The notes beneath the pieces are model-generated. The model was not told the origin of the DNA, ran no database searches, and saw only the letters and a program-made list of their open reading frames with translations. From an uncultured bacterium (GTDB lineage: Bacteria > Cyanobacteriota > Vampirovibrionia > Gastranaerophilales > Gastranaerophilaceae), in the NCBI GenBank assembly GCA_902766975.1, contig CACXFH010000039.1, positions 1 through 34,047 on the forward strand: a DNA stretch of 34,047 nucleotides, read 5' to 3'. Positions 14,373-20,360 of this stretch are shown here, in pieces. The position numbers were made by a program, and so were the translations under genes. The stretch's first letter is position 1, and each line of letters starts with the position of its first letter.

Positions 14373-15701
14373 TTATTTTTTATCTTTACGCTCTCTTGCG
14401 CTTAGTCTTATAGGATTGCCCCAAAAACCGAAAGCCTCTCTGAGTCGGTTTTCAAGATAGCGCTTATAATTATCTTTTAAAAGTTCCTCGCTATTTACGA
14501 AAAATACAAATGTCGGCGGTTGAGAATTGACCTGCGTTGTATAATATATCTTTAATCTTTTGCCTTTAAAACTTGTAGGAGGATTCAATGCATAAGCTTC
14601 GTTTATAACTTTATTCAAAAGCCCTGTTGAAATTCGCTTGCAACCCTCATTATAAATCTTAATTCCTTCCTCAAAAATTTGAGTCAACCTTTGTTTTGTT
14701 ACTGCACTGATGAAAATTTTGGGAGCATAGCTTAAAAACGGAATATCCCGTTCAAGTTTTTCACTGAATTTATTTATCGTATTTGCTTTTTTGTCTTCTA
14801 TTAAATCCCACTTGTTAATAGCAACTATTATTCCTTTGCCTGCCTCTGTAATTAGTGAAGATATACGTTTATCCTGATCTGAAATTCCCTCTTTTGCATC
14901 TATAACCAAAAGCGCTACATCACAATCTCTTATAGATCGGATTGCTCTGTCCACCGCAAATTTCTCTACTCCGTAGTCAACTTTTGATTTTTTTCTTATT
15001 CCTGCCGTGTCTACGATTGTAAAATCAGTATCATTATATTTTATATAACTGTCAATACTGTCACGAGTAGTTCCTGACACGTCAGAAACTATTACTCTTT
15101 TTGTGTCTAACAATGCATTCACAATAGATGATTTTCCTGCATTCGGACGTCCGACAATTGCAATTCTTATACGGTGCTCTGTTTCTTTTTCTGCACTATA
15201 TTCAAAATCTTCAGTAATAATTTCCAATAAATCCCCAACTCCGCCTGAACCATGCAAAGCCGAAATTGCTATCGGATCTCCGACAGACAAGGCATAAAAA
15301 TCACTTGTCATTGCCATTGATTCGGGATTATCACATTTATTTACCGCAAGATAAATTGGTTTTGAAGCCCTGCGTAATATATTTGCAATATCATAATCAA
15401 TCGGATTAATCCCCTCTTTCCCATCGACAAGAAAAATGATTTTATCTGCTTCTTCACAAGCTAATTGAGCCTGAGAAAATATTGAATTCATAATATCATC
15501 ATCGTCTCCGGGGATAATTCCGCCTGTATCAATGACGGTAAAACCCTTACCCTGCCATTCGACATCAAAATAAATTCTGTCTCTTGTGACTCCCGGAGCA
15601 TCATCTACAATGGAATTTCTGGCTCCGACAAGACGGTTCACAAATGTAGATTTCCCGACATTTGGACGACCGACTATTGCAACTGTTGGTTTTCTGTTCA
15701 T
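14373..15701 (-). CDS. der: Ribosome biogenesis GTPase Der (EngA)
   Basis: Tandem-GTPase protein needed for 50S subunit assembly. Domain 1 has GRPNVGKS (residues 11-18), DTGG and NKCD. Domain 2 has GRPNAGKSS (about 185), DTAGIRKK and NKWDLIE. A KH-like C-terminal domain follows (PTSFKGKRLKIYYTTQVNSQ, then RENR-type helix and NPIRLSARERKDKK). The 442-aa length is standard. There is no Shine-Dalgarno site before the ATG; a strong promoter ends six bases upstream, so the mRNA is probably leaderless. It diverges from the yceD-rpmF-plsX-fabH operon. Confidence 0.98.
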   Translation of the reverse strand: MNRKPTVAIVGRPNVGKSTFVNRLVGARNSIVDDAPGVTRDRIYFDVEWQGKGFTVIDTGGIIPGDDDDIMNSIFSQAQLACEEADKIIFLVDGKEGINPIDYDIANILRRASKPIYLAVNKCDNPESMAMTSDFYALSVGDPIAISALHGSGGVGDLLEIITEDFEYSAEKETEHRIRIAIVGRPNAGKSSIVNALLDTKRVIVSDVSGTTRDSIDSYIKYNDTDFTIVDTAGIRKKSKVDYGVEKFAVDRAIRSIRDCDVALLVIDAKEGISDQDKRISSLITEAGKGIIVAINKWDLIEDKKANTINKFSEKLERDIPFLSYAPKIFISAVTKQRLTQIFEEGIKIYNEGCKRISTGLLNKVINEAYALNPPTSFKGKRLKIYYTTQVNSQPPTFVFFVNSEELLKDNYKRYLENRLREAFGFWGNPIRLSARERKDKK

Positions 15702-15707
15702 AGCTTA

Positions 15708-15736
15708 AAAATATCATGAATAATTAGGTTTGTAAA
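15708..15736 (-). promoter_or_regulatory. Promoter for der with -10 six bases before ATG
   Basis: On the minus strand: TTTACA (15731-15736), a 17-nt spacer ending in TGA, TATTTT (15708-15713), then TAAGCT and ATG. Hexamer spacing is ideal and the -10 is TG-extended. The predicted start falls on the A of the ATG. This is the best-supported leaderless candidate here. Confidence 0.7.
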
Positions 15737-15756
15737 ATGGGAATCCGGTAAAATCC

Positions 15757-15785
15757 TTGATTTTATTGTCTATTTTTGCTAAAAT
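15757..15785 (+). promoter_or_regulatory. Promoter of the yceD-rpmF-plsX-fabH operon
   Basis: TTGATT (15757-15762), a 17-nt spacer ending TGC, and TAAAAT (15780-15785): near-consensus and TG-extended. Predicted start is about 15792, giving a leader of roughly 22 nt that contains AAAGGAG. It lies back to back with the der promoter. Confidence 0.7.
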
Positions 15786-15813
15786 CAAGTATACACAGGA
15801 AAAGGAGTATGAG

Positions 15814-16071
15814 ATGGCACAACAATATAACAATCCGAATGCACAAAATATTAAAAAACGTTATGCTGTTTTGGCATTCATTAAAGGTTCGACAGCACCG
15901 CTGGTTTTGTACGTAAAAGAACCACAGCAACTATATGACGAATTGGCAAATCTAATGCAGTCACAAAAAGCAGTTTTGTTTGAACACGAAACAGAAGGAC
16001 CGATTAAAAAAGTATGTTTTATGTCTAATCAGCTTGCAGCAATTGCAATTCAGGAAGAACAATATATTTAA
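15814..16071 (+). CDS. Small protein of unknown function heading the lipid/ribosome operon (85 aa)
   Basis: An 85-aa soluble protein starting MAQQYNNPNAQNIKKRYA, with a beta-rich, hydrophobic-alternating middle (VLAFIKGSTAPLVLYVKEP) and a C-terminal KVCFMSNQLAAIAIQEEQY. The ATG is fixed by AAAGGAG with 6-nt spacing; the longer frame back to 15757 runs into the promoter and is excluded. It lies 2 nt upstream of yceD and is the first gene of the operon. No recognised motif or membrane segment. Its fold could be a small beta-barrel or PilZ-like element, but this is a guess I would not rely on. Confidence 0.75.
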   Translation: MAQQYNNPNAQNIKKRYAVLAFIKGSTAPLVLYVKEPQQLYDELANLMQSQKAVLFEHETEGPIKKVCFMSNQLAAIAIQEEQYI

Positions 16072-16073
16072 TT

Positions 16074-16574
16074 ATGAAAAAAATATTACTGATTGAAGAT
16101 ATTGAAAATGCAAAAAATAAAACATTACATTGCGTTTTTAATGAAAAAATAGAAGAAATAGATTGTGTTACGCCAATCAAAGCAGAGCTTGAAGTAAAAT
16201 CGTTAGGCGAATTTATTCAAATCAAAGGACACGTTAGCGGAATTGTAAATTTAGAATGCGATTTGTGTCTTGGAAAATTTAATCATAATTTGGATTTTAA
16301 TATTGATGAAATATATTCAAAAGGCTCGCTGCTGAAAGGTTATGAGAATTCTGATAAAGAATATGAAATCAAGGAAGGGCAGTTTATAACAGACCTTAAC
16401 GGAGAAAAAGAAATAGATATTTATGACTTATTGTATCAATCTGTAATATTAAGTTTCCCAAATAAAAAGGTTTGTGGTATAAATTGTAAAGGGAAGGAAT
16501 ATTTATCTCAAGAAAATAATTCCGATCCGAGACTGGAAGTCTTTAAAAATATCCAAATTAACCCAAAAAAGTAG
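16074..16574 (+). CDS. yceD: YceD/DUF177 family protein (23S rRNA accumulation)
   Basis: DUF177 protein; the E. coli and plant homologues are needed for normal 23S rRNA accumulation. The 166-aa protein has the family layout: N-terminal beta region, a first CxxC (NLECDLCLGKF, Cys62 and Cys65), the acidic EIDIYDLLYQSVILSFP segment, a second Cys pair (VCGINCKG, Cys134 and Cys138) and the C-terminal DPRLEVFKNI. It starts 2 nt after the previous stop with no clear Shine-Dalgarno site, so it is probably translationally coupled. Adjacency to rpmF and plsX is the conserved arrangement and supports the call. Confidence 0.92.
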   Translation: MKKILLIEDIENAKNKTLHCVFNEKIEEIDCVTPIKAELEVKSLGEFIQIKGHVSGIVNLECDLCLGKFNHNLDFNIDEIYSKGSLLKGYENSDKEYEIKEGQFITDLNGEKEIDIYDLLYQSVILSFPNKKVCGINCKGKEYLSQENNSDPRLEVFKNIQINPKK

Positions 16575-16601
16575 ATAGTAGAAAATAAAAAGGAAAGAAA
16601 A

Positions 16602-16937
16602 ATGGCAGTACCAAAGAAAAGAACAGGTCATAGCGCTCAAGGTTCAAGAAGAGCAAACTGGAAAGCTGTAAAGCCTGAAACAACAAAATGCCCTAACTGT
16701 GGCGCAACAGTTTTAGCGCATACTGTATGCACAGAATGCGGAACATATAAAGGTCAACCGGTAAAATTAGCAGATAAAGCAGCTGCAGCTGCAGCACCTG
16801 CAAAAAAAGCCGTTAAAAAAGCAGCTCCTAAAAAGACCGCAAAAAAAGCAGAAGCTAAAGTTGAAGAAACTAAGGCTGAAGAAGCAAAAGAAGAAGTTAA
16901 AGCAGAAGAACCTGCAAAAGAGGAAAAAGCAGAATAA
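16602..16937 (+). CDS. rpmF: Ribosomal protein bL32 with long charged C-terminal tail
   Basis: Large-subunit protein bL32. Residues 1-57 are canonical: MAVPKKRTGHSAQGSRRANW, then a zinc site with Cys30, Cys33, Cys43 and Cys46 (CPNCGATVLAH and CTECGTYKG). Normal bL32 ends at about 55-60 residues, but this one continues for some 54 more residues of low complexity. The tail is first Ala/Lys-rich (AAAAAAPAKKAVKKAAPKK) and then Glu-rich (EETKAEEAKEEVKAEEPAKE). The Shine-Dalgarno site AAGGAAAG precedes the ATG. The extension is in frame and ends at a clean TAA; its codon use is highly repetitive, as expected from expansion. Confidence 0.95.
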   Translation: MAVPKKRTGHSAQGSRRANWKAVKPETTKCPNCGATVLAHTVCTECGTYKGQPVKLADKAAAAAAPAKKAVKKAAPKKTAKKAEAKVEETKAEEAKEEVKAEEPAKEEKAE

Positions 16938-16944
16938 ATCTATA

Positions 16945-16978
16945 CAAGTTAGGATGATAAAATATCATCCTGAACTTG
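16945..16978 (+). promoter_or_regulatory. Hairpin A in rpmF-plsX spacer
   Basis: Arm CAAGTTAGGATGATA (16945-16959), loop AAA, then TATCATCCT and AACTTG (16963-16978) with one bulged G at 16972, giving a 15-bp stem. It begins 7 nt after the rpmF stop. The right arm is also part of the left arm of hairpin B, so the two cannot form together. It is followed by TTTCAG rather than a U-tract, so it is not a typical terminator. Confidence 0.6.
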
Positions 16979-17022
16979 TTTCAGCATCTTAAAGAAATAA
17001 GATATTGAAACGAGTTCAGATG
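16966..17022 (+). repeat. Hairpin B: long imperfect palindrome upstream of plsX
   Basis: Left arm 16966-16991 (starts CATCCTGAACTTGTTTCAG) pairs with right arm 16998-17022 (TTGAAACGAGTTCAGATG at its 3' part) around the loop AAGAAA. There are about 24 pairs including two G-U, one C-A mismatch and one bulge. The arm sequence resembles dispersed palindromes I recall from several bacterial genomes, so it may be a mobile palindromic element. It ends 11 nt before the plsX Shine-Dalgarno region. Confidence 0.65.
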
Positions 17023-17040
17023 GTAGTTGAAAGAGGGAGT

Positions 17041-18108
17041 ATGGCTAGAATAGCAATAGATGCAATGGGTGGAGATTACGCCCCGAGAAAAATAGTTGAG
17101 GGCGCTTTGTGGGCTGCAATGGAATACGGTGTTTCGCTTGAGCTTGTCGGTCAGGAAGATGCAATTCAAAAGGAGCTTGACCATATAAGAAAAGTCGGTT
17201 ATGTATTGTCAGATTGCGGAACAAAAGGGCATAAAAGAAGAATAAGAATTGATTTAGATAAAATTGATTATACAATTACTCATGCATCAGAAGTTATAGG
17301 CATGGGTGAAGCTGTCGGTCAATCAATCAGACGTAAAAAGGATTCATCTATAGTGGCATCGGTTAATGCGGTAGCACAAGGACGATGTGAAGCTGTTGTA
17401 TCAGCAGGCTCAACAGGTGCGGCTATGGCAGCAAGCTTATTCGGATTAGGCAGAATTTCAGGTATAACAAGACCTGCCATTGCCGTTACATTACCAAGAA
17501 TGGATAAGCCTGTTGTTATTATTGATGGCGGAGCTAACAGTGATTGCACCGCCGGAATGTTGGCTCAATTTGCGCAAATGGGCGTTGCATACGCAAAGCT
17601 TAGTCTTGGAATAGAAAATCCTAAGGTCGGAATTTTGAGTATCGGAGAAGAAGAAGGTAAAGGCAATGAACTGGTAAAAGAAACTTATCCTTTACTTAAA
17701 CAGATGAATGAAGATGGCAGATTTGAGTTCGTAGGAAACGTTGAAGGTAAAGAAGTATTTAAAGAAAAGGCTGATGTAATTGTAACGGACGGTTTTTCAG
17801 GCAATATCGTATTAAAAGTAACCGAGGGTTCGTCATCATTACTTTTAAATATGATTAAAACAGAATTTAAATCGGATATAATAGGAGCGATAATCGGTTT
17901 GCTTGCAAAACCGTTTTTGCGCAGAATTTTAAAACGTGTAAACTGGGAAGTTTTCGGCGGCATGCTTCTTCTCGGGGTTAACGGAATTTCAGTTATTGCA
18001 CATGGCAGAAGTTCGGCTTATGCAATGAAAAATGCTGTTGGTGCAGCAGTGAAAGTACTAAACAAGGATATAAATTCAAGAATATCAGAAAGTATAAATA
18101 ATGAATAA
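17041..18108 (+). CDS. plsX: Phosphate acyltransferase PlsX
   Basis: Converts acyl-ACP to acyl-phosphate, the acyl donor for PlsY in phospholipid synthesis; peripheral membrane enzyme. The N-terminus MARIAIDAMGGDYAPRKIVEGA is diagnostic, followed by HASEVIGMGEAVGQSIRRKKDSS, SAGSTGAAMA, GISTRP-type GITRPAIAVTLP, DGGANSDC, NVEGKEVFK and DVIVTDGFSGNIVLKV. Length of 355 aa is slightly above the usual 330-345. The longer frame with TTG at 17005 lies within the palindrome and is rejected; the ATG at 17041 has GAGGGAG just upstream. It overlaps fabH by 8 nt, indicating coupling. Confidence 0.97.
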   Translation: MARIAIDAMGGDYAPRKIVEGALWAAMEYGVSLELVGQEDAIQKELDHIRKVGYVLSDCGTKGHKRRIRIDLDKIDYTITHASEVIGMGEAVGQSIRRKKDSSIVASVNAVAQGRCEAVVSAGSTGAAMAASLFGLGRISGITRPAIAVTLPRMDKPVVIIDGGANSDCTAGMLAQFAQMGVAYAKLSLGIENPKVGILSIGEEEGKGNELVKETYPLLKQMNEDGRFEFVGNVEGKEVFKEKADVIVTDGFSGNIVLKVTEGSSSLLLNMIKTEFKSDIIGAIIGLLAKPFLRRILKRVNWEVFGGMLLLGVNGISVIAHGRSSAYAMKNAVGAAVKVLNKDINSRISESINNE

Positions 18109-19111
18109 TTTAAAACCTATGAAAATTGCAGGTGTCGGTTATTGCGTACCGCAAACAGTAATAACAAATGATGACTTAAAAAAGCTTTACGAAACATCGG
18201 ATGAGTGGATTTATTCCCGTACCGGAATCAAGGAAAGACGAGTTGTTTCAGGTAATGAGACCGCAATTGATTTGGGTTTGGTAGCTGCCAAAAATGCCAT
18301 GCAAAAATCGGGGTTTGAACCGAAAGATATTGATTGTATCATTTCAGCGGCATCTGTTCCGCCCCAGTTATATCCGACTTTAGCTTGTACATTGCAAGAC
18401 AAGCTGGGGATTCCCAATCAAGTGCCGGCATTCGATTTAACTGCTGCTTGCACGGGACTTATATATGCTATGCAGGTTGCAAGAGGTTTTATTGGCGCAG
18501 GGATATATAAAACTATTTTAATAGTTGCATCTGATAACAATTCAAAAATTACCGATTGGACAGACAGAGGTACTTCCATTTTGTTTGGTGACGGAGCCGG
18601 AGCAATGGTTGTTACTGAGGCTGATGACGGTATTGATGATATTCTGTCTATTAACATAAGCGCTGATGGTTCAATCGGGCAAATGATTCAGACTAATATG
18701 CCTGGGCAATGCTGCCCGCTTGTAGAACAAGCCGATGAATCCGGTACGGGTAAAATTATTATGAACGGTAAAGAGGTTTATAAATTTGCTGTTTCTACAG
18801 TTCCGTCGTACGTAGAAGAATGCATAAAAGCATCCGGCATGACTTCTGATGAAATTGATTATTTAATTCCCCATCAAGCTAATCAAAGAATTATAGAATC
18901 AATTCAAAACCGACTCAAATATACTGATGACAAGGTAATATCAAATATCAAATATTACGGAAATACATCCGCAGCATCAATTCCGATTGCTCTTGTTGAA
19001 GGTGTTGAACAAGGCAAAATCAAACTCGGGTCAACTGCTGTTCTATGCGGATTTGGGGCAGGCATGACCTGGGGCGCTGCCGTAGTCAGACTTCGTGAAG
19101 GTATTTGCTAG
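18101..19111 (+). CDS. fabH: 3-oxoacyl-ACP synthase III
   Basis: Starts fatty-acid elongation by condensing acetyl-CoA with malonyl-ACP. The Cys-His-Asn triad is present: Cys117 in FDLTAACTGLIYAM, His in LIPHQANQRI, Asn in YYGNTSAASIP. TSDEWIYSRTGIKERR and the C-terminal LCGFGAGMTWGAAVV are typical, and the 336-aa length is normal. The ATG at 18101 overlaps plsX; an internal ATG at 18119 (MKIAGVGYCVP) is an alternative start matching the family better. It is the last gene of the operon, and its stop lies one base from the stop of the opposing 54-aa gene. Confidence 0.97.
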   Translation: MNNLKPMKIAGVGYCVPQTVITNDDLKKLYETSDEWIYSRTGIKERRVVSGNETAIDLGLVAAKNAMQKSGFEPKDIDCIISAASVPPQLYPTLACTLQDKLGIPNQVPAFDLTAACTGLIYAMQVARGFIGAGIYKTILIVASDNNSKITDWTDRGTSILFGDGAGAMVVTEADDGIDDILSINISADGSIGQMIQTNMPGQCCPLVEQADESGTGKIIMNGKEVYKFAVSTVPSYVEECIKASGMTSDEIDYLIPHQANQRIIESIQNRLKYTDDKVISNIKYYGNTSAASIPIALVEGVEQGKIKLGSTAVLCGFGAGMTWGAAVVRLREGIC

Positions 19112-19112
19112 G

Positions 19113-19277
19113 TTATAAATCTTCAGGTAAGAAGATAGCGTTTTTACTTAATATTTCTCTAGTATGTTCGTAACAGCAACTTTTGCGTGTCAGTTTTTGG
19201 TACTCTCTTACTATATTGAGAACATCGTCAACGGATAATTTAATAATACGTCTTTCGCTTTCAATTATATTTGCCAT
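19113..19277 (-). CDS. Small protein of unknown function (54 aa)
   Basis: A 54-aa reading frame: MANIIESERRIIKLSVDDVL, then NIVREYQKLTRKSCCYEHTR and EILSKNAIFLPEDL. It is charged and helical-looking, with adjacent Cys residues and no signal peptide. Strong evidence that it is real: AAAGGAG six bases before the ATG and a coherent, ungapped frame. It lies downstream of the dehydrogenase gene on the same strand, but an 87-nt gap with an ATGTCGACAT palindrome suggests its own control. Similar short proteins with IESERR.IKLSVDDVL are familiar to me from Melainabacteria (recall, not checked). A small nucleic-acid-binding or adaptor protein is possible, unproven. Confidence 0.75.
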   Translation of the reverse strand: MANIIESERRIIKLSVDDVLNIVREYQKLTRKSCCYEHTREILSKNAIFLPEDL

Positions 19278-19299
19278 TTTAAGCTCCTTTCGTAATTAA

Positions 19300-19309
19300 A
19301 TGTCGACAT
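19300..19309. promoter_or_regulatory. Perfect 10-bp palindrome upstream of 54-aa gene
   Basis: ATGTCGACAT lies 22 bases upstream of the small gene's ATG and just upstream of its Shine-Dalgarno site. It shares the ATGTCG/CGACAT half-sites with the inverted repeat upstream of glmS, which suggests a common regulator site or coincidence. Confidence 0.3.
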
Positions 19310-19364
19310 AACTTGAAATTAACTTAAAAAGGTCATTTGAAAGGTATAAAAATAGAGTTTAAAA

Positions 19365-20360
19365 TTATAATAGATTTTTGATTATGGCATCCGTAAATTC
19401 AGTAGTAGAAAGAGTTCCTCCTAAATCTGCGGTTTTCTTATCTTGTGATAATGTTTTAAATAAGGCATTTTCAATCCTATTGGCATGTTCAAATTCATTA
19501 ATGTATTTCAGCATTTCTATTGCTGATAATAAAAGTGCCGTCGGATTTGCCCTATTTTGTCCTTTAATATCAGGAGCAGACCCATGAACAGGTTCAAATA
19601 CAGCGTAATCTTTACCTATATTCGCGCCTTGAGCTACACCAAGCCCCCCGATTAGCCCAGCTGTCAAATCCGAAACAATATCCCCATATAAATTCGGTAA
19701 AACTAAAACATCAAAACGGGTCGGCTCCTGCACAAGTTGCATACATAAATTATCTACAAGTATTTCTCTTTGTTTTATTTGCGGATAATTCTTTGCAATG
19801 TTGCGATAAGACTCCAAAAACAAGCCATCCGACAGTTTCATTATATTAGCTTTAGTGACAACGCAAACCTCATGCCTGTTATTTTTTACGGCATAATCAA
19901 ATGCGAATTTACAAATACGTTCAGAAGCATGTCTTGTTATAATTTTTATACTATGAGCGGTGTTTTCATCAATCTGTTCTTCAATTCCGGCATACAAATC
20001 TTCGGTGTTCTCTCTTACCACAACAATATCCACATTTTCAAATCTCGTTTTTACCCCCGGAAGATTTTTACATGGACGAAGATTTGCATATAGATCCAAA
20101 TCTTTTCTCAATTGAACATTTACCGAGCGAAAACCTTTTCCGATTGGGGTGGTAACAGGAGCTTTGAGCGCGACTTTATTCTTTTTTATTGAATCTAAAA
20201 CTCTTTGAGGCAAAGGGGTTCCTTCATTCTCTATTACATCAGAGCCGGCTGTCTGAATATCCCAATTTATATCAAGTCCGCTTGCTTTGATAATCTTTAC
20301 AACGCTTTCAGATATTTCAGGACCTATTCCGTCCCCGTTTATTAAAGTTATATTGTGCAT
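19365..20360 (-). CDS. icd: Isocitrate/isopropylmalate dehydrogenase family protein (probably NAD-dependent IDH)
   Basis: Beta-decarboxylating dehydrogenase using Mg2+ and NAD(P). MHNITLINGDGIGPEI opens the protein; GFRSVNVQLRKDLDLYANLRP is the isocitrate-binding loop of short NAD-IDHs; then VVVRENTEDLYAGIE, VTKANIMKLSDGLFLE, LVLPNLYGDIVSDLTAGLIGG and EPVHGSAPDIKGQ. At 331 aa it fits the NAD-IDH or homoisocitrate group rather than the 400-aa NADP enzyme. No leuCD genes are nearby, favouring IDH over LeuB. The ATG has GGAGG eight bases upstream and TATAAT at 20380-20385 on the same strand. Confidence 0.88.
   Translation of the reverse strand: MHNITLINGDGIGPEISESVVKIIKASGLDINWDIQTAGSDVIENEGTPLPQRVLDSIKKNKVALKAPVTTPIGKGFRSVNVQLRKDLDLYANLRPCKNLPGVKTRFENVDIVVVRENTEDLYAGIEEQIDENTAHSIKIITRHASERICKFAFDYAVKNNRHEVCVVTKANIMKLSDGLFLESYRNIAKNYPQIKQREILVDNLCMQLVQEPTRFDVLVLPNLYGDIVSDLTAGLIGGLGVAQGANIGKDYAVFEPVHGSAPDIKGQNRANPTALLLSAIEMLKYINEFEHANRIENALFKTLSQDKKTADLGGTLSTTEFTDAIIKNLL

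Follow-up and report, generated by a model that had tools for sequence, protein, structure and literature searches.

Between malE and malF of Escherichia coli there lies a REP hairpin that separates two cistrons, in the same way as the rpmF-plsX site considered here. The study of E. coli differential decay names malEFG and, in the passages concerned, states that the stabilised segment ends just after a stable hairpin lacking a U-tract in 26 of the 34 operons whose first gene is stabilised (PMC5927463). For Clostridium, a correlation between stem-loop energy and transcript ratio is described in a section of another report (PMC4423207). As for the genes themselves, rpmF, plsX and the fab genes are presented as one operon in an excerpt of PMC5049393. 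In E. coli, about 60% of the plsX-containing transcripts come from promoters further upstream, yielding an mRNA that also carries yceD and rpmF, and plsX has an additional weak promoter of its own, according to portions of PMC3896788.

The site was analysed in an uncultured gut bacterium of the Gastranaerophilaceae (Cyanobacteriota, Vampirovibrionia; assembly GCA_902766975.1) and in its relatives. The window denotes the whole stretch of 34,047 nt of contig CACXFH010000039.1. An original prediction, made from the window alone, read two mutually exclusive hairpins between rpmF and plsX as an attenuator or translational switch. This observation was partly right. The switch is unsupported, and our best guess is a role in RNA stability or insulation.

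REP units and predicted fold of the window spacer

The gene order yceD-rpmF-plsX-fabH is borne out by Pfam matches, and rpmF indeed lies beside plsX and fabH as originally proposed. All four genes are on the forward strand: yceD (DUF177, PF02620; 16074-16574) precedes rpmF (ribosomal protein L32, PF01783; 16602-16937), whose product has a K/A/E-rich tail by sequence, and plsX (phosphate acyltransferase, PF02504; 17041-18108, with its ATG at 17041) is overlapped by fabH (3-oxoacyl-ACP synthase III, PF08541/PF08545; 18101-19111). The rpmF-plsX spacer measures 103 nt and contains the plsX Shine-Dalgarno region GAGGGAG (17033-17039, forward strand), which is predicted to be mostly unpaired in both folds discussed below. 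By analogy with E. coli, rpmF and plsX are assumed to be co-transcribed. A possible promoter in the spacer, a single 9-of-12 match at 16941-16968, was not credited, as it comes from a scan with 19 matches against 12.9 expected.

The region 16930-17060 has a predicted fold of -37.2 kcal/mol (z = -6.1, none of 200 shuffles being as stable), and the spacer alone gives a z-score of -5.8 in the shuffle test. Both inverted repeats are present at the positions that had been given for them, with stems beyond chance (z about -6). The distance of 7 nt between the rpmF stop (16937) and the first of them, hairpin A, is confirmed, as is the lack of a run of U after the end of the second, hairpin B. Taken singly, A and B have energies of -15.7 and -26.2 kcal/mol. 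What does not hold is the claim that they cannot coexist, since the predicted optimum contains the core of A (16951-16971, forward strand) and B (16972-17017, forward strand) side by side. In this optimum, A is paired as 16951-16959/16963-16971, with pair probabilities of 0.94-0.96 for the central and 0.46-0.76 for the end pairs. Hairpin B, 19 bp formed by a forward and an inverted REP unit, is paired as 16972-16984/17005-17017 plus 16986-16991/16998-17003, with probabilities of 0.89 to 1.0 from 16972 inward. Only the outermost pairs of A, which join 16945-16950 to 16972-16978, compete with B. The full hairpin A (16945-16978, forward strand) is, from folding and forced-fold costs, a transient or minor form: forcing it costs 5.2 kcal/mol, or 6.9 kcal/mol by the ensemble of a longer stretch. 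When the transcript is folded as it grows, full A is the best structure until about 17010, B has captured the base of A once 17014 is made, and a brief strand exchange from A to B during transcription is plausible on these models. The window has no Rfam match above the gathering score; the best sub-threshold match, MIR5304 (28.8 of 75 bits, E 3e-4), was taken as a chance resemblance of the sort that a long hairpin gives.

The spacer is a cluster of three REP copies in alternating orientation (partial inverted, forward, inverted). The partial copy (16944-16959, reverse strand) matches the forward unit's first half in reverse complement, apart from one missing base, and forms the 5' arm of A. 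The forward unit (16963-16989, forward strand) has the tag TATC, the stem ATCCTGAA/TTCAGCAT and the loop CTTGT, and the inverted unit (17000-17026, reverse strand) is decayed at its outer end. The apparent A/B switch arises because the middle copy can pair with either neighbour; the overlap follows from REP copies lying side by side and would at most represent a short-lived stage of folding. Within the window's own genome (1.69 Mb), an 18-base REP piece was found at 24 places with at most 3 mismatches, compared to 5 for the reversed pattern, and 9 of the 24 are inside an ORF of at least 80 codons as called by a simple ORF finder. Inverted REP doublets elsewhere in this genome (L015/L026, L016 and L019) are predicted to form a long hairpin alike. 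The REP core occurs 6 times in the 347 kb sampled of this genome and 0 times in 400 kb of G022.

These units resemble the CGTC-tagged REP super-family (Di Nocera et al. 2013, PMC3733652), as characterised in passages of its description, in combining TGTC with an 8-bp stem that starts with AT and a 5-nt loop, in their occurrence as doublets and in having no known dedicated transposase. The tag is TGTC in copies such as the clean copy L011 and a degenerate TATC in the window. The stem, which in the super-family measures 8-9 bp starting from AT with a loop of 4-5 nt, is ATCCTGAA/TTCAGGAT with the loop CTTGT in L011 and has one mismatch in the window copy. The elements are also repeated and mostly extragenic. 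They differ in their low copy number, in the degenerate, three-unit cluster of the window and in their tail, which starts with CT (CTC or CTT) and is not CCA; the same description allows, in the part concerned, that CCA fits most CGTC-tagged repeats, not all. A 25-nt piece of L011 has perfect matches (E 8e-4) in plasmid records of Sphingobium, Novosphingobium and Sphingomonas, none of which lists a gene at the matching position, and 14 records match it in all. Weaker matches were to Treponema (90-92%, E 0.03-0.1) and to Sulfurovum (94%, inside an annotated gene). These plasmid and other-taxon matches agree with the spread of the super-family as published in sections of PMC3733652. A search of the plasmid collection with the window spacer itself gave nothing at E 1e-5.

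A further likeness is to REPINs, inverted REP doublets that, in the words of part of PMC3116915, form one hairpin or less stable smaller hairpins. A RAYT-linked REPIN was rejected as an established fact: Y1_Tnp was detected in 21 of the 46 genus genomes, and the REP core occurred in the fetched flanks of only one of the 8 Y1-transposase loci searched (out of 35 listed), 0.6-1 kb away. At another place in the window's genome (L123, about 1320-1940, C72), a Y1-transposase (RAYT-like) gene lies beside and overlaps the palindrome GGTTGGGGTTTCTACCCCAAC, a different repeat from that of the window. In the literature, the REP core string was not found in papers, and the matches listed held no description of these elements for Gastranaerophilales or Melainabacteria/Vampirovibrionia. 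The cluster in the window is itself an ordinary REP arrangement; what makes the locus notable is that different hairpins have replaced one another at a single orthologous site.

Hairpin turnover within the genus

The spacer was readable in 45 of the 46 same-genus genomes, G025 being dropped as its contig ends inside plsX, and G040 has two plsX loci, which gives 46 spacers with 45 distinct sequences. All 46 fold beyond their shuffles (median z -4.5, weakest -2.66), with none of 200 shuffles as stable for 38 spacers and 1-3 for the other 8, and none is empty. One plsX gap with a z-score of +0.46 (L090) resulted from a spurious ORF that cuts the spacer, and the full spacer of the same genome (L044) has a z-score of -4.2. 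Among 110 other ++ gaps, 39% lie at z below -3, many of them terminators by eye, the gap classes being approximate as genes in the sampled regions were called with a simple ORF finder.

The sequence of the spacer, in turn, is exchanged. Local alignment with a cluster threshold of 40 (the largest score of 3000 shuffled pairs was 35) divides the spacers into 11 clusters, a number that over-splits them, as the REP-like L042 is left outside the REP cluster and hairpin A is common to the short and REP clade II spacers. Three broad kinds can be recognised: REP (9 spacers), palindromes with repeated units of 8-9 nt, referred to as octamer type (16), and short hairpins (21). Parsimony on a yceD/rpmF/plsX tree requires 16 changes among clusters and 6 among the broad kinds, compared to an average of 20.4 for shuffled kind labels, indicating that the kinds are partly inherited. 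The 8 genomes with a PlsX 93-95% identical to that of the window include three of the REP kind (L034, L036, L037) and five of two other kinds (L035, L041; L038-L040). In L045, L047 and L051, the alignment places hairpin A on the short hairpin that sister species carry, with the REP part as an extra segment 3' of it.

Pairing is retained within the alignable sets. With pairs predicted from the same alignments, counted without a covariation control and with L055 left out as a copy of L053, the short-type set of 13 has 2 of 10 pairs changed on both sides and 0 of 130 cells non-standard; the REP set of 5 has 6 of 26 pairs changed on both sides, three of which sit in the core of A, and 4 of 130 cells non-standard. 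The remaining sets offer little: the GTTGAATA set has 0 of 26 and 5 of 104, respectively; and both-side changes number 1 of 32 pairs in REP clade II and 2 of 16 in short2. The original prediction had expected a neutral insertion to reveal itself by a spacer that is not conserved in relatives or that lacks compensatory changes. The sequence is indeed not conserved, whereas the presence of a structure is, and some pairs have changed on both sides. A hairpin that is kept while its sequence is swapped suggests that shape matters more than letters. Where a structure persists through replacement and not through point changes, the usual test for covariation would have little power.

Comparison sites and dispersed palindromes

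Within the same gene set, the yceD-rpmF spacer is short. The median is 30 nt in the 42 of 44 that were parsed (two were not, and L034 and L128 are not included), and the 3 of 42 longer than 50 nt, the only ones folded, have folds of -6.3 kcal/mol or weaker. Outside the genus, 61 of the 175 plsX-matching family genomes were sampled, about 1-2 per genus plus the best-scoring ones, of which L244 and L258 could not be parsed. Judged by length and energy, without z-scores, 33 of the 59 parsed rpmF-plsX spacers are at least 56 nt long with folds of -16.1 kcal/mol or lower, and the other 26 fall below 40 nt and fold no more stably than -4.0 kcal/mol, with none between these classes. The short, weakly folding spacers show the rpmF-plsX hairpin to be dispensable outside the genus.

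Two more sites were found via a DNA search with one octamer-type spacer. Taking as filled, by our own choice, spacers of at least 55 nt with a fold of -18 kcal/mol or lower, and with L178, L188 and L314 assigned separately, the rpsB-tsf spacer in the genus is filled in 32 of 37 cases and empty in 5. Of the 43 groES-groEL spacers, the same limits class 12 as filled and 25 as empty; 5 intermediate ones and 1 truncated by a contig end count as neither. Incomplete loci (groES-groEL in G033, tsf in G011) are outside these totals. Both spacers are filled in the window's genome (L167, L200), and two groES-groEL spacers hold a REP dimer (L324, L325). In nine of the 32 filled rpsB-tsf spacers (L183-L187, L307, L308, L310 and L312), one conserved, longer and clade-specific structure (AAAAGGTGAATTGTAAAA...CACCTTTT) replaces the exchangeable palindromes.

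Upstream of rpsB, a conserved and structured-looking leader was seen (GCCCTAGTCGG...CCCGATG...CAGTGTTTCCCGTAGTAC; L131:211-447, L129:477-730, L130:452-719), with no Rfam match at the gathering score for L129 and L131. Likewise, a conserved hairpin-bearing stretch lies between co-directional genes (GCGAGAGTG...CATTCTCGCATTATTT) at L095:10358-10468, L096:10639-10749, L098:10283-10394, L101:10291-10401 and L104:10959-11079, with no Rfam match for L095 and L098.

Our account of the octamer family draws on sites identified by eye and on a pattern count, the autocorrelation filter having been too strict and having returned few elements. Across the 46 genomes, the pattern has 476 matches compared to 63 for the reversed pattern, overlapping arrays being counted repeatedly; 15 genomes have no matches and the window's genome has 18 (reversed pattern, 12). 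In G016, 20 fetched stretches hold 21 octamer sites. By approximate gene calls, 10 of these separate co-directional genes (rplU-rpmA, rny-ymdB and the gene preceding yceD among them), 10 are in other gaps and 1 is undetermined, a spread that shows the elements to be dispersed and not confined to operons. Some species (G014, G016, G017, G018, G027 and others) carry many arrays of TAAGnnnn octamers and others have none, and among the matches listed the unit sequence leans to a genome-specific type. This TAAGnnnn-like family of 8-9-nt repeats has seemingly not been described before.

Candidate roles of the stem-loop

By analogy with the systems described for E. coli and Clostridium, we propose, with moderate confidence, that the mRNA stem-loop insulates or stabilises the rpmF segment relative to plsX, its sequence being exchangeable and often repeat-derived. 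In this proposal rpmF and plsX would share a transcript, as in E. coli, and the stem-loop would end the rpmF segment. Cleavage would occur in or beyond the spacer, upon which the stem-loop would stop 3'-5' exonucleases and the rpmF mRNA would outlive the plsX-fabH mRNA. Such a difference in lifetime would suit the larger demand for a ribosomal protein. Since the proposed role asks only for a stable hairpin, one mobile or slippage-prone palindrome could take the place of another. A candidate for the cleavage enzyme, RNase Y, has its gene in G016, the one genome examined. We infer selection for the structure, an effect on the mRNA ratio and the nucleases that would bring it about. The original preference for control of translation or RNA stability over strong termination is supported in its stability half, given a fold in 46 of 46 spacers and stems that remain paired with some both-side changes, and is unsupported in its translational half. 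Counted against the stabilising stem-loop are its dispensability outside the genus, the occurrence of the repeats in other gaps, which fits mobile elements, and the abundance of strong folds in these genomes. As a generalisation for this genus that is somewhat less likely than not, the rpmF-plsX, rpsB-tsf, groES-groEL and other core-operon sites might carry structure-only stem-loops that tune the mRNA ratio of neighbouring genes, built from interchangeable, recruited palindromes of the CGTC-type REP dimers and of the TAAGnnnn-like family.

The main rival is neutral repeat insertion, in which the site tolerates REP or palindrome insertions and the arms stay complementary through slippage or template switching, the structure serving no purpose in the mRNA. 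This would account for the dispersal of the repeats, for groES-groEL sites being both filled and empty along with the 5 of 37 empty rpsB-tsf spacers, and for a hairpin that is optional outside the genus; much of the constancy is moreover inherited, with kinds clustering on the tree. We nevertheless consider it unlikely, if still a serious contender. No genus spacer is empty despite 6 to 16 changes of kind, the yceD-rpmF spacer stays short, and 21 of the 46 spacers hold a short hairpin that showed no sign of being a repeat; in the 13 of these that were aligned, all 130 cells are standard pairs. A site that is filled in 46 of 46 cases, set against a mostly empty groES-groEL, speaks against neutrality at rpmF-plsX, with the qualification that kinds are partly inherited.

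Partial termination or attenuation of transcription, which would lower plsX relative to rpmF, appears improbable. A scan of 15650-19400 gave 8 terminator matches against 2.2 expected, including one at 16949-16973 with a weak T-rich tail, and several short-type relatives have T-rich stretches 3' of the stem. However, B is not followed by a U-tract and lies directly 3' of A, and the tails differ between types. A strong intrinsic terminator was rejected, as hairpin B is followed by CAGATGGTAG without a U-run and the weak match concerns the core of A only.

A regulatory switch between A and B, sensed by ribosomes finishing rpmF, is very improbable. All 9 REP-type spacers do have an early hairpin A (-13.9 to -20.8 kcal/mol) that shares 6-18 nt with B and costs only 1.2-8.4 kcal/mol to keep, A forms before B in the growing chain, and half of the both-side changes in the REP set are in the A core. 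Nevertheless, B is predicted to form alongside the A core, holding full A in the window takes 5-7 kcal/mol, and the plsX Shine-Dalgarno region is predicted to be about equally accessible in the free fold (0.78) and with full A forced (0.73). Furthermore, 37 of the 46 spacers lack a strong early hairpin with re-pairing, the nearest being L044 with an early fold of -13.3 kcal/mol. By a bare count of at least 5 re-pairing bases, 14 of 16 octamer-type and 3 of 21 short-type spacers would also qualify, but 14 of the 16 octamer-type spacers have early folds no stronger than -8.2 kcal/mol, and keeping the early fold costs at least 10 kcal/mol in 15 of 16.

DNA gyrase is among the proteins that bind REP elements. 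Action at the DNA level, with the REP as a site for gyrase or another protein and no role in the mRNA, is the least probable reading. In its favour, REPs are said in a passage of PMC2817692 to bind several proteins; against it, this site accepts different sequences that have only palindromic structure in common.

If the stabilising or insulating stem-loop is real, the 46 orthologous spacers, which keep a hairpin while its sequence is swapped among repeat kinds, would form a natural experiment on whether intergenic REP-like repeats are junk or working RNA parts. Compared to the malE-malF hairpin of E. coli, the REP family and the operon are different and the role in the window is putative. In E. 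coli, the structures of differential decay generally lie in coding regions, unlike the intercistronic site found here. A close likeness is to the stem-loops of selective RNA processing and stabilisation (SRPS) or differential decay as described in parts of PMC4423207, PMC5927463 and PMC8219983, which share the lack of a U-tract, the placement 3' of the gene expected to be more abundant and the conservation of position. A stable hairpin without a U-tract between co-directional genes is found at rpmF-plsX as well, T-rich tails in some short-type relatives aside. The difference from these systems is that here one orthologous site exchanges repeat kinds.
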